Positions 16,271 to 19,828 of a stretch of 64,000 nucleotides of DNA are shown in pieces (positions within the stretch are counted from its first letter, which is position 1; each line of letters begins with the position of its first letter). A model generated the notes under the pieces. That model saw nothing but the letters and a program-made list of their open reading frames with translations, did no database searches and was not told the DNA's origin. Origin of the DNA: Streptomyces abyssomicinicus (GTDB lineage Bacteria > Actinomycetota > Actinomycetes > Streptomycetales > Streptomycetaceae); NCBI RefSeq assembly GCF_008974245.1, contig NZ_BBZI01000010.1, positions 124,001 to 188,000 on the forward strand, given 5' to 3'. The position numbers were made by a program, and so were the translations under genes.

Positions 16271-17050
16271 ATGTCCCCCGCAACTGCCGCGGCCGCCGCG
16301 GCCGTAGTACCCGCCGCGCCCTTCGTACCCGTGCTCCGCTCCGAGTGGATCAAGATCCGGTCGGTGCGGGCGAGCTGGGGCTCGCTGCTGGCGATCCTGC
16401 TCGTCACCACGGCCCTCACCGTCCTGGCCTACGCCACCATCGGCGAGTCGGAGGCGGCGAACGGGGGGAACCGGGTGAAGGAGGCCTTCTACACGATGAA
16501 CTTCGCCCAGGTGGCGGCCCTCGCCTACGGGGCCACCGCGGTGTCCTCGGAGTACCGCGAGGGCGCCCTGCGCGTCTCCCTGGCGGCCGTGCCGCGCCGC
16601 GGACTGCTCTACTGCTGCAAGACCGCGGTGATCGCGGTCACCGCCCTGCTGGTGTCCGTCCCGACCACCTTCGCGGCCTTCCTGGTCGGCCAGGCCTTCC
16701 TCGGCGAGTACGCCATCGGGCTCGGCCACCCGGGAGTGCTGCAGGCCTGCGTCGGCGGAGCGGTCTACCTGGTGCTGATGACGCTGTTCGCCGCCGGCCT
16801 CACCTTCCTGCTGCGCAGCGCCGTCGGCGCGCTGAGCGTCCTGGTCCCGTTCGTCCTGGTGGGGTCGTTCGTGCTCGGCGACGGGGCCGGAGGGATCGGC
16901 GCCTACCTGCCCGACCGGGCCGGCAGCCACTTCTTCCGGGAGACCTCGCCGGGACCGCTCGGGCCCTGGGAAGGGCTCGCCGTGACCGCCCTGTGGGCGG
17001 CCGCCGCGCTGGCCGTCGGCTGGTGGGCGATGCGCCGCCGGGACGCCTGA
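16271..17050 (+). CDS. ABC-2 type transporter permease
   Basis: A 259-residue membrane protein with six hydrophobic segments. The N-terminal cytoplasmic element PVLRSEWIKIRSVRASWG is the hallmark of actinobacterial ABC-2 permeases. It is followed by helices near residues 38-60, 85-100, 118-140, 155-180, 190-205 and 235-252. The conserved VSSEYREGALRVSLAAVPRR coupling segment is present. It forms an exporter with the ATPase immediately upstream. The substrate is unknown, perhaps a peptide or antibiotic given the two-component partner. Confidence 0.88.
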   Translation: MSPATAAAAAAVVPAAPFVPVLRSEWIKIRSVRASWGSLLAILLVTTALTVLAYATIGESEAANGGNRVKEAFYTMNFAQVAALAYGATAVSSEYREGALRVSLAAVPRRGLLYCCKTAVIAVTALLVSVPTTFAAFLVGQAFLGEYAIGLGHPGVLQACVGGAVYLVLMTLFAAGLTFLLRSAVGALSVLVPFVLVGSFVLGDGAGGIGAYLPDRAGSHFFRETSPGPLGPWEGLAVTALWAAAALAVGWWAMRRRDA

Positions 17051-17079: not shown

Positions 17080-17397
17080 TCAGTGCAGGAACTTCAGCCC
17101 GACCACCCCGCCCACGATCAGGGCCAGGCAGATCAGACGGGCGGCGGTGGCGGGCTCGTGCAGGAAGAGCATCCCGTAGAGAGCCGTGCCGACGGCCCCG
17201 ATGCCGACCCAGACCGCGTAACCGGTGCCGATCGGGATCGAGCGCATCGCGTAGGCCAGCCCGCCCATGCTGAGCACGAGGGCGGCGGCGAAGAGCAGGG
17301 TGGGAACCAGGCGGGTGAAACCCCGCGAGGCGTTCAGGGCGACGGCCCAGACGGTTTCGAGCAGTCCGGACACGATCAGTACGAGCCAGGCCGACAT
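17080..17397 (-). CDS. gdx: Guanidinium exporter, Gdx/SugE subtype of the SMR family
   Basis: A 105-residue small multidrug resistance protein with four membrane helices. The dual-topology dimer couples proton entry to export of guanidinium. The conserved Glu14 lies in GLLETVW. The Gdx/SugE rather than EmrE subtype is indicated by ASRGFTRLVPTL, SIPIGTGYAVWVGIGAVGTA and the GVVGLKFLH end. The 5' leader carries a guanidine-III riboswitch, which independently identifies the substrate. The ATG at 17397 has GAAGGGG about ten bases upstream. The older name is sugE. Confidence 0.92.
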   Translation of the reverse strand: MSAWLVLIVSGLLETVWAVALNASRGFTRLVPTLLFAAALVLSMGGLAYAMRSIPIGTGYAVWVGIGAVGTALYGMLFLHEPATAARLICLALIVGGVVGLKFLH

Positions 17398-17432
17398 GGC
17401 GGCGGAACCCCTTCGGAAGAGACGGCAGTCGG

Positions 17433-17473
17433 TACGCCGTCTTGTCCTCACCGGGTACGACGCGCTCGTCCGG
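17433..17473 (-). promoter_or_regulatory. Guanidine-III riboswitch (ykkC-III)
   Basis: Read on the minus strand from 17473, the leader contains CCGGACGAG, then GUACCCGG, then AGGACAAGACGGCG. This is almost base for base the core of the guanidine-III riboswitch from Thermobifida fusca. It folds as a pseudoknot that closes a guanidinium pocket, and the CGCGUCGU / GACGGCG complement keeps the pairing with G-U replacements. It ends 35 bases before the start codon of the Gdx gene. Its 3' GACGGC arm (17441-17436) can instead pair with 17426-17421, giving an alternative hairpin nearer the ribosome site, so control is likely at translation initiation. Confidence 0.92.
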
Positions 17474-17498
17474 GGCCGCGCCGGGCGACCACGTCCGA

Positions 17499-17504
17499 GG
17501 CTAA
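17499..17504 (-). promoter_or_regulatory. Possible -10 (TTAGCC) for the riboswitch-gdx transcript
   Basis: TTAGCC on the minus strand lies about 25 bases before the riboswitch core, so a transcript from here would include the whole aptamer. No clear -35 is visible. The rest of 17505-17700 is GC-rich sequence in which I see no gene. Confidence 0.3.
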
Positions 17505-17711
17505 CACGCCCGGACCGGCCGGTGCCGGGGCCCGCTTCCGGGGGTGAGGGGCGGCACCCGGCGAGGGCCCGAAGCGCCGGCGGGCCGCTCCCGCACGCCC
17601 TCGGGGAACCGGGCCCGACCTGCGCCGCAGCCCGCCGGGCCGGGCGCCCGACGGGCGGGAACGGCCGGGGAACCGGCTCCCGGCGGTGATGCGGGCGTGG
17701 TTCCCGAGCGC

Positions 17712-17770: not shown

Positions 17771-19144
17771 ATGTCCGCAACACGACGTCAGATGATCGCC
17801 CGCTCCGGTGCACTCGGAGCGGGCGTCGTGGTCTCCGGGGCCGTCGCGGAGCTCTTCTCCGTGTCCGCCGCCTCCGCGCTGCCGCTCACCGAGGCGGGAT
17901 ACGGTCCGCTGACGCCCGACCCCCACGGCCTGCTCGACCTGCCGAAAGGTTTCAGCTACCGGGTGCTCTCCCGCGAGGGCGAGGCCCTCCGCTCCGGCGA
18001 GGGACAGGTGCCCTCCCACTGCGACGGCATGACCGCGCTGCCCGGCAGGAAGGGCCGCGTCCACCTCGTCCGCAACCACGAGAACCGCACGACCGCCGCG
18101 CTCGGCGTCCCCACCGTCGAGGGGCTCACCTATGACCCCGCGGCCAAGGGCGGCTGCACCCTGATCACCCTGGACGGCCCCGACGGCGCGGTCGTCGACG
18201 AACGCGTGGCCGTCGCGGGCACCGCGGTCAACTGCAGCGGAGGACCCACCCCTTGGGGCACCTGGCTGACCTGCGAGGAGACCGAGGACAAGGCCGGAGT
18301 CGCCGGCTACGCCAAGGACCACGGCTTCATCTTCGAGGTCGACCCCGCCGACCCCCGGCGCAGCGGCGCGGTGCCGCTCACCGCGATGGGCCGGTTCCAG
18401 CACGAGGCGGTCGCCGTCGACCCCGTCCACGGCCTCGTCTACGAGACCGAGGACGCCTTCGTCGCCCCCTTCGGCCTGTTCTACCGCTTCCTGCCCGACC
18501 GGCCGGAGGGCCGCCTGGGTTCGCTCCGCGCGGGCGGACGGCTCCAGGCGATGCGGGTGCCGGACCTGCCCGACCTGTCCGTCGTCGACGAACCCGGCGC
18601 GAGCTTCGGCGGCGTGCGGTGGGTGGACGTTCCCGACCCGCTGGCCGCCCGGACTCCGACCCGTCTCCAGGACTACGGCCCGGGCGGCGTCACCCGGGGG
18701 CAGAAACTCGAGGGCTGCTACTGGGGCGGGCGCTCCGTCTACTTCGTCTCCTCCTACGCCCGCACCGGCGAGGGATCCGGTGCCGACCACCACGGCCAGG
18801 TCTGGCGCTACGACCCCGGTGCCCGCCGCCTCACCCTGGTGATCGTCTTCGGCCCCGGCTCGGACGTCCAGCTGCCGGGCGAGTCCCCGGACAACATCTG
18901 CCTGGCACCCGGGGGCTCGCTGATGGTCTGCGAGGACGGCAGCGGCGCCCAGCACGTCCACGGGGTCACCCGCCGCGGCGAGGTCTACACCCTGGCCCGC
19001 AACGCCCAGAACATCGGCACCGAAGAGGCCCCGGAATGGGGCGAGTTCGCCGGCGTCGCCTTCTCGCCCGACGGCGGGACCATGTACGTCAACTGCTACG
19101 ACCCGGGCACCACCTTCGCCGTCACGGGTCCCTGGCGGAGGTAG
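17771..19144 (+). CDS. Tat-exported DUF839 (PhoX-like) protein
   Basis: A 457-residue secreted protein. The N-terminus has a twin-arginine signal (TRRQMIARSGALGAG, with the double Arg at residues 4-5 and an Ala-rich hydrophobic stretch ending near ASA at about 35). The mature part is a DUF839/PhoX beta-propeller: LVRNHENRT, NCSGGPTPWGTWLTCEET with the metal-site Glu residues, GRFQHEAVAVDP, KLEGCYWGG and SPDNICLAPGGSLMVCEDG. PhoX enzymes are calcium-iron alkaline phosphatases. Whether this member is catalytic needs testing. GGAAGG precedes the ATG. A hairpin at 19152-19178 terminates it. Confidence 0.88.
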   Translation: MSATRRQMIARSGALGAGVVVSGAVAELFSVSAASALPLTEAGYGPLTPDPHGLLDLPKGFSYRVLSREGEALRSGEGQVPSHCDGMTALPGRKGRVHLVRNHENRTTAALGVPTVEGLTYDPAAKGGCTLITLDGPDGAVVDERVAVAGTAVNCSGGPTPWGTWLTCEETEDKAGVAGYAKDHGFIFEVDPADPRRSGAVPLTAMGRFQHEAVAVDPVHGLVYETEDAFVAPFGLFYRFLPDRPEGRLGSLRAGGRLQAMRVPDLPDLSVVDEPGASFGGVRWVDVPDPLAARTPTRLQDYGPGGVTRGQKLEGCYWGGRSVYFVSSYARTGEGSGADHHGQVWRYDPGARRLTLVIVFGPGSDVQLPGESPDNICLAPGGSLMVCEDGSGAQHVHGVTRRGEVYTLARNAQNIGTEEAPEWGEFAGVAFSPDGGTMYVNCYDPGTTFAVTGPWRR

Positions 19145-19207: not shown

Positions 19208-19828
19208 TCAGAACCGGAAGCCGACGACCCCGAAGCCGGGCCGCGCCGCCGCGCGCCGCATCCACCCGACGCACTGCATGACGGCGTCCGCCACCTCCGG
19301 CTCCAGCGGCGGCGCCTCGCCGGAGGCGTCCACCTCACGCCGGGTGGCCTCGAACTGCTCCAGCGCCTCCGCGATCGCCCCGGGCGTCCATTCGCCGTAG
19401 TCCGGGGTGTCCGCCCGGGGCAGCGGCGCGGGGAGCCCGCCGAAACCGAACTCCTCGACCGAGACGGCGGTGACGCCCAGGGTCTTCAGCCCGTTGTCGA
19501 CCACCGTGAGCCAGTCGCCCCGGTGCGGGGTGAAGCAGCCGTTGTCCAGGGGGACCCCCGTGAGTCCGCACAGCCGCTCGTAGGCGTAGCCGTACCGGAA
19601 CCCGTGGTCCTCGTTCCGGCTGAACGGGCCGCCGTGCACCACCGCGCGCAGCGCCTCGAAGGCCGTGGGCGCGCCCTCCTCGATGGCGTGCGCGAACCAC
19701 CGGTCGTCGCGGTCGAGGGCGTCCCCGAACCGGTCGCGGACGACTTCCAGCAACTGCTCGTCCTTCGATCCCACCAGCGCGCGGGTGGCGGCCACTTCGA
19801 GCAGGTACACGTTCAGGGAGGAACTCAT
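19208..19828 (-). CDS. DUF7691-like hypothetical protein
   Basis: A 206-residue soluble protein that resembles the DUF7691 family of Streptomyces. It starts with SSSLNVYLLEVAATRALVGS, has an Asp/Arg-rich helix and carries a conserved middle (RYGYAYERLCGLTGVPLDNG). The middle is followed by VEEFGFGGLPAPLPRADTPDYGEW and a helical C-terminus ending near PGFGVVGFRF. Function is unknown. No signal or membrane segment. A candidate SigB-type promoter lies at 19896-19872. Confidence 0.6.
   Translation of the reverse strand: MSSSLNVYLLEVAATRALVGSKDEQLLEVVRDRFGDALDRDDRWFAHAIEEGAPTAFEALRAVVHGGPFSRNEDHGFRYGYAYERLCGLTGVPLDNGCFTPHRGDWLTVVDNGLKTLGVTAVSVEEFGFGGLPAPLPRADTPDYGEWTPGAIAEALEQFEATRREVDASGEAPPLEPEVADAVMQCVGWMRRAAARPGFGVVGFRF

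Follow-up and report, generated by a model that had tools for sequence, protein, structure and literature searches.

Guanidine-III riboswitches (ykkC-III, Rfam RF01763) have Actinobacteria as hosts and emrE and speB as gene partners, as given in the available portion of PMC2864571, and both the ON direction and the binding pocket of the class have been published (PMC5696562 and PMC12186494, in excerpt). In the excerpted text of PMC5696562 the ligand is proposed to free the ribosome site, the expression platform being called only probable, and an excerpt of PMC12186494, citing Richards and Belasco 2021, adds that guanidine-III RNAs also protect mRNA against RNase E. Within the small multidrug resistance (SMR) family, the closest solved relative of the transporter considered below is Gdx-Clo, for which the accessible part of PMC7695847 names E13, W16, S42, Y59 and W62 as binding-site residues. 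According to the same portion of that source, W16 is conserved in the Gdx subtype, the Qac subtype having Gly or Ala at this position, the two subtypes overlap in a promiscuous transport of hydrophobic substituted cations, and the canonical EmrE drugs are not carried by Gdx proteins. Aptamer, ligand and gene partner are already covered by published class data, and the riboswitch-exporter arrangement is common, already described in this bacterial group and ordinary for the genus; what is new here is an alternative pairing open to the 3' strand of helix P2, with the leader as partner.

The window analysed (the whole 64-kb stretch of the Streptomyces abyssomicinicus genome, 64,000 nucleotides) holds one such element, 17431..17494 on the minus strand with the optional 5' hairpin included, placed 33 nt upstream of an SMR gene (17397-17080, minus). 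A search with the Rfam guanidine-III model, proposed as a check in the original prediction, matched 17494-17431 over model positions 1-67 of 67 with a score of 52.9 bits (curated threshold 36 bits) and E 4.1e-8 over both strands of the 64-kb window, where it was the sole Rfam match at gathering scores. At E 0.001 the genome (24 contigs, 7.93 Mb in all) has no other RF01763 match; the same search at that threshold gave a match in one of 14 control genomes, and no guanidine-I riboswitch was found in the genome at E 0.001. The three core segments quoted in the original prediction were recovered on the minus strand (CCGGACGAG at 17473-17465, GTACCCGG at 17458-17451 and AGGACAAGACGGCG at 17448-17435), but the start it had given, 17473, is that of P1 and misses the model's 5' portion, the element beginning at 17494. 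On sequence grounds the element is confirmed as a genuine member of the guanidine-III family, a textbook example on a Streptomyces-type chromosome.

Compared with the Thermobifida fusca crystal RNA (5NWQ), the window element shares the P1/P2 pseudoknot, the pocket nucleotides and the AGGACAAGACGGCG segment, together with the location before an SMR gene and an actinobacterial host. It differs in being one base shorter between ACGAG and P2, in two P2 G-U pairs, with U for C at two places, and in an 8-bp hairpin competing with P2 that comes after the aptamer. The published pseudoknot (PMC5696562, in excerpt) was mapped onto an alignment (A1) of 75 aptamers and its 11 pairs counted over 72 distinct rows. 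P1, formed by CCGG at 17470..17473 (minus) and CCGG at 17451..17454 (minus), was 100% paired, and P2 joins GCGTCGT at 17457..17463 (minus) to ACGGCGT at 17434..17440 (minus); together the two helices were paired in 97.7% of cells. Two-sided changes occurred at four of the 11 pairs (17 cells, 2.4 in shuffles), at most three of 500 shuffles were as high on any covariation measure, and the pseudoknot was broken when the partners were slid, these covariation counts being inflated by related rows. The H-type pseudoknot of P1 and P2 thus covaries. The compensating G-U changes that had been claimed for the paired arm are present (GCGUCGU with ACGGCGU, two G-U pairs), and at one of these two positions the distinct rows carry UG in 32, CG in 21 and UA in 19. 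The equivalents of the pocket nucleotides C6 (17468), G7 (17467) and G17 (17458), all on the minus strand and located with the crystallised T. fusca RNA as reference (portion of PMC5696562), were invariant in all 75 aptamer rows. The window aptamer would be expected to bind guanidinium, and ACAAGACGG is the segment in which micromolar guanidinium, not urea, would protect the aptamer RNA.

The gene behind the aptamer (17080..17397, minus; 105 aa) matched the SMR family PF00893 with 82 bits (cut-off 23.7). Its best PDB matches were 6wk5 (Gdx-Clo, E 1.3e-27) and 8vxu (E 4.8e-27), the EmrE entries trailing with a best E of 1.4e-6 and others weaker. The alignment to 6wk5 covers residues 3-103 of 105 and places E14, W17, S43, Y60 and W63 in the binding site, the Gdx-specific Trp (W17) among them; Asn22 stands where Gdx-Clo has Lys. 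With Gdx-Clo far ahead of EmrE and the Gdx Trp present, the assignment to the guanidinium-exporting Gdx (SugE) subtype made in the original prediction is supported, and the product is likely a guanidinium exporter. Its further assertion that an annotation as quaternary ammonium resistance would be wrong was too strong. NCBIfam NF008512 (SugE), a model whose name is that of quaternary ammonium efflux, was narrowly missed (122.7 against 126 bits) and was the best among the 21 SMR models listed, and both subtypes move substituted cations (PMC7695847, in excerpt), so that the wording of the annotation becomes a matter of emphasis. An SMR gene that automatic annotation may name for quaternary ammonium efflux can here be interpreted, along with the way it is controlled, as probably encoding a guanidinium exporter.

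The exporter gene looks monocistronic. ABC transporter ORFs converge on it, one an ATPase (PF00005) and the ORF behind that, ending at 17050, permease-like by eye alone, and a PhoX-family gene (17771-19144) diverges from it. At 19208-19828 (minus) the window also encodes a DUF7691 protein (PF24740, 198.5 bits) of unknown function. A second SMR gene in the same genome (L031, 1456-1779, minus) carries Phe in place of the Gdx Trp; it was considered as part of the unit and rejected for that replacement and because the only RF01763 match in the genome is that of the window.

RF01763 was matched at E 0.001 or better in 168 of 199 genus genomes, the source genome included, and above the cut-off in 163 of 199. 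Among exporter relatives (the best 80, named, of 281), 74 had a match at the cut-off just upstream (19, 20, 19 and 16 per successive 20); of the six without one, four (L175, L184, L190 and L194) had a motif recognisable by eye within the 135 bases viewed, and in L125 and L185 no motif was seen by eye within that span. A tree of 62 SMR proteins (106 columns, midpoint root), in which many forks are unresolved and the second SMR gene is one long branch, grouped the window exporter with proteins of Kitasatospora, Amycolatopsis and other actinomycetes; a branch with support 98/85 divides this group from the exporter that is commoner in the genus. Both lineages, the window's and the commoner one, lie behind a guanidine-III riboswitch. 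At 33 of the 80 named loci (L123-L202), mostly of Kitasatospora type (14, 17, 2 and 0 per successive 20), an opposite-strand tRNA gene lies some 85-310 nt upstream of the aptamer; it may mark shared locus descent or an integration site.

Upstream of the aptamer, an extended -10 motif, TGTTAGCCT (TGNTANNNT), lies at 17498..17506 (minus) and marks a putative promoter. Of 75 leaders, 53 carry the motif TGNTANNNT upstream of P1, as do 3.3% of shuffled regions, and its distance from P1 is identical in the window and in S. fragilis; the 22 leaders that have no TGNTANNNT are mostly from more distant genera. Transcription would probably start a few bases downstream of the -10 motif, near 17491, at the 5' edge of the aptamer. 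A scan of 17300-17620 for sigma-70 promoters with a -35 element found none, and a scan of the same interval for terminator-like sites was likewise negative. The likely Shine-Dalgarno site is AAGGGG at 17408..17413 (minus), 10 nt before the start codon and the best anti-SD match in the stretch scanned.

The original prediction had held that the 3' arm can also pair with 17426-17421 and that this suggests the off-state. The pairing is real and extends to 8 bp, 17442-17435 with 17427-17420: the 5' arm of the putative competing hairpin (AGACGGCG, 17435..17442, minus) overlaps the 3' strand of P2, the 3' arm is TGCCGTCT (17420..17427, minus), and the hairpin is computed at -11.7 kcal/mol. An equivalent hairpin, its distal arm in different letters, occurs in S. 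fragilis (L123), whose exporter is 94% identical; the rank among 100 shuffles was 0.04 for S. fragilis and 0.06 for the window. The computed energy of P2 itself was -8.4 kcal/mol in the window, weaker than the -11.1 of S. fragilis. Close relatives of the exporter are few, the best non-self match in 392 genus genomes being at most 73% identical and a search of 61 genomes at E 1e-36 giving only three matches, its own included; the window hairpin therefore has one close comparison, S. fragilis.

Across the wider set of leaders such complementarity is enriched. Of 29 leaders, the set thinned to below 85% similarity, 13 (1.45 expected) had a P2 3' strand whose pairing with its own linker ranked within the top 5% against 500 shuffles, and linkers of similar length taken from other loci did equally well in 31% of cases on average. 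In the unthinned set the top 5% against 100 shuffles was reached by 30 of the 51 long leaders and 10 of the 24 short ones, and swapped linkers were on average inferior to the leader's own in 40 of the long and 18 of the short leaders. Taken alone the window was marginal against shuffles (p 0.06), and its linker was no better than swapped ones (-13.60 against -13.61). In short leaders (e.g. L181 and L192) there is overlap between the pairing partner and the Shine-Dalgarno site; in many Kitasatospora-type leaders the partner abuts the site, and in the window, whose hairpin spares the site, it lies upstream. The complementarity found across the group suggests an off-state role for the competing helix, as had been proposed; for the window's own hairpin that role is carried over from the group. 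The comparative leader set also supplies testable off-state helices for the guanidine-III class.

We consider it highly probable that the locus is a single-gene unit consisting of an extended -10 promoter, a guanidine-III aptamer and a Gdx-type antiporter, working as an ON switch through the competing hairpin. The promoter would drive a single-gene transcript carrying the aptamer and then the guanidinium/proton antiporter. Rising guanidinium would bind between the equivalents of G7 and G17 and lock the H-type pseudoknot, the locked pseudoknot would keep the P2 3' strand from forming the hairpin with the leader just downstream, and with that hairpin prevented the exporter would be made. How the switch is read out was approached with a masking model in which the folded aptamer acts as a block and the cost of opening the Shine-Dalgarno site is computed, here for 75 leaders. 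The cost dropped by 1.21 kcal/mol on average, shuffled linkers giving a drop of 0.88 (Wilcoxon p 0.10), the gain in the window was small (from 4.79 to 4.39), and the mean unpaired probability of the site fell slightly upon aptamer folding, from 0.49 to 0.44. As the gain over shuffled linkers was not significant, Shine-Dalgarno masking by the energy model was rejected as support, and the folding energy of the whole leader was no better than that of shuffles either (z -0.13). Because the masking model had no advantage over shuffles, the read-out is one that we infer, through either translation or the stability of the mRNA: it would act on the translation start, on mRNA protection or on both. With the masking, folding and terminator results all null, the switch takes its assigned direction from the guanidine-III class, by analogy with which the window element would be ON.

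A possible alternative, to which we give a minority share of the probability and which is compatible with the competing-hairpin switch, is that the aptamer mainly protects the mRNA, the 5' pseudoknot blocking scanning of the RNase E type and the hairpin being minor. Such protection is reported for guanidine-III in the portion of PMC12186494 that cites Richards and Belasco 2021, the transcript is predicted to begin at the 5' edge of the aptamer, and Shine-Dalgarno masking drew no support from the energy model; yet protection alone would not need the competing complementarity, which is enriched across the group. Within the set of papers searched, none came up for the guanidine-III pseudoknot riboswitch together with RNase E. 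It is improbable that the hairpin at 17442-17420 instead stops transcription at low guanidine: a stable, G+C-rich hairpin does stand between aptamer and gene and shares a strand with P2, but no terminator-like site was found in 17300-17620, and in relatives with a short linker, L181 and L192 among them, the pairing partner instead coincides in part with the Shine-Dalgarno site. A variant aptamer for another ligand, e.g. a substituted guanidine, serving export of other cations is very improbable, for although the class pocket accepts methyl-, amino- and ethylguanidine (PMC5696562, in excerpt) and SMR proteins are promiscuous (PMC7695847, in excerpt), the pocket nucleotides and the AGGACAAGACGGCG segment are identical to those of the crystallised T. 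fusca RNA.

Within the competing-hairpin switch, a more speculative and on balance unlikely extension is that the leaders of the exporter lineage share the competition between P2 strand and leader while the partner has moved, the window and S. fragilis reading out by a different step. If this were true, the partner would cover the Shine-Dalgarno site where the leader is short, sit immediately ahead of it in leaders of Kitasatospora type and belong to a separate upstream hairpin in the window and S. fragilis, and the read-out step of the window lineage would be RNA stability or attenuation, unlike that of its relatives.

Other guanidine-III gene partners were seen in the genus. In six further genomes (L046, L073, L074, L076, L078 and L079) an OsmC-like gene follows RF01763 at a distance of about 66-79 nt, and the one such gene tested matched PF02566 with 31.2 bits; in these elements the core GCACGACG replaces ACAAGACG with the pocket bases kept, a pattern present in eight of 199 genomes, the gene having been read in six. 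None of the papers searched joins guanidine-III and OsmC. In five others (L036, L041, L047, L070 and L077) RF01763, with a Shine-Dalgarno site right behind it, is followed by a protein of about 290 aa with an HTHxHxDH motif, an association whose pattern occurs in six of 199 genus genomes, five of them read. A 129-aa piece of this protein had no Pfam match, and none of the papers searched joins a guanidine riboswitch and the metallo-beta-lactamase fold. The HTHxHxDH motif is one that we take to be metallo-beta-lactamase-like, and the protein may be an enzyme with a guanidine compound as its substrate.
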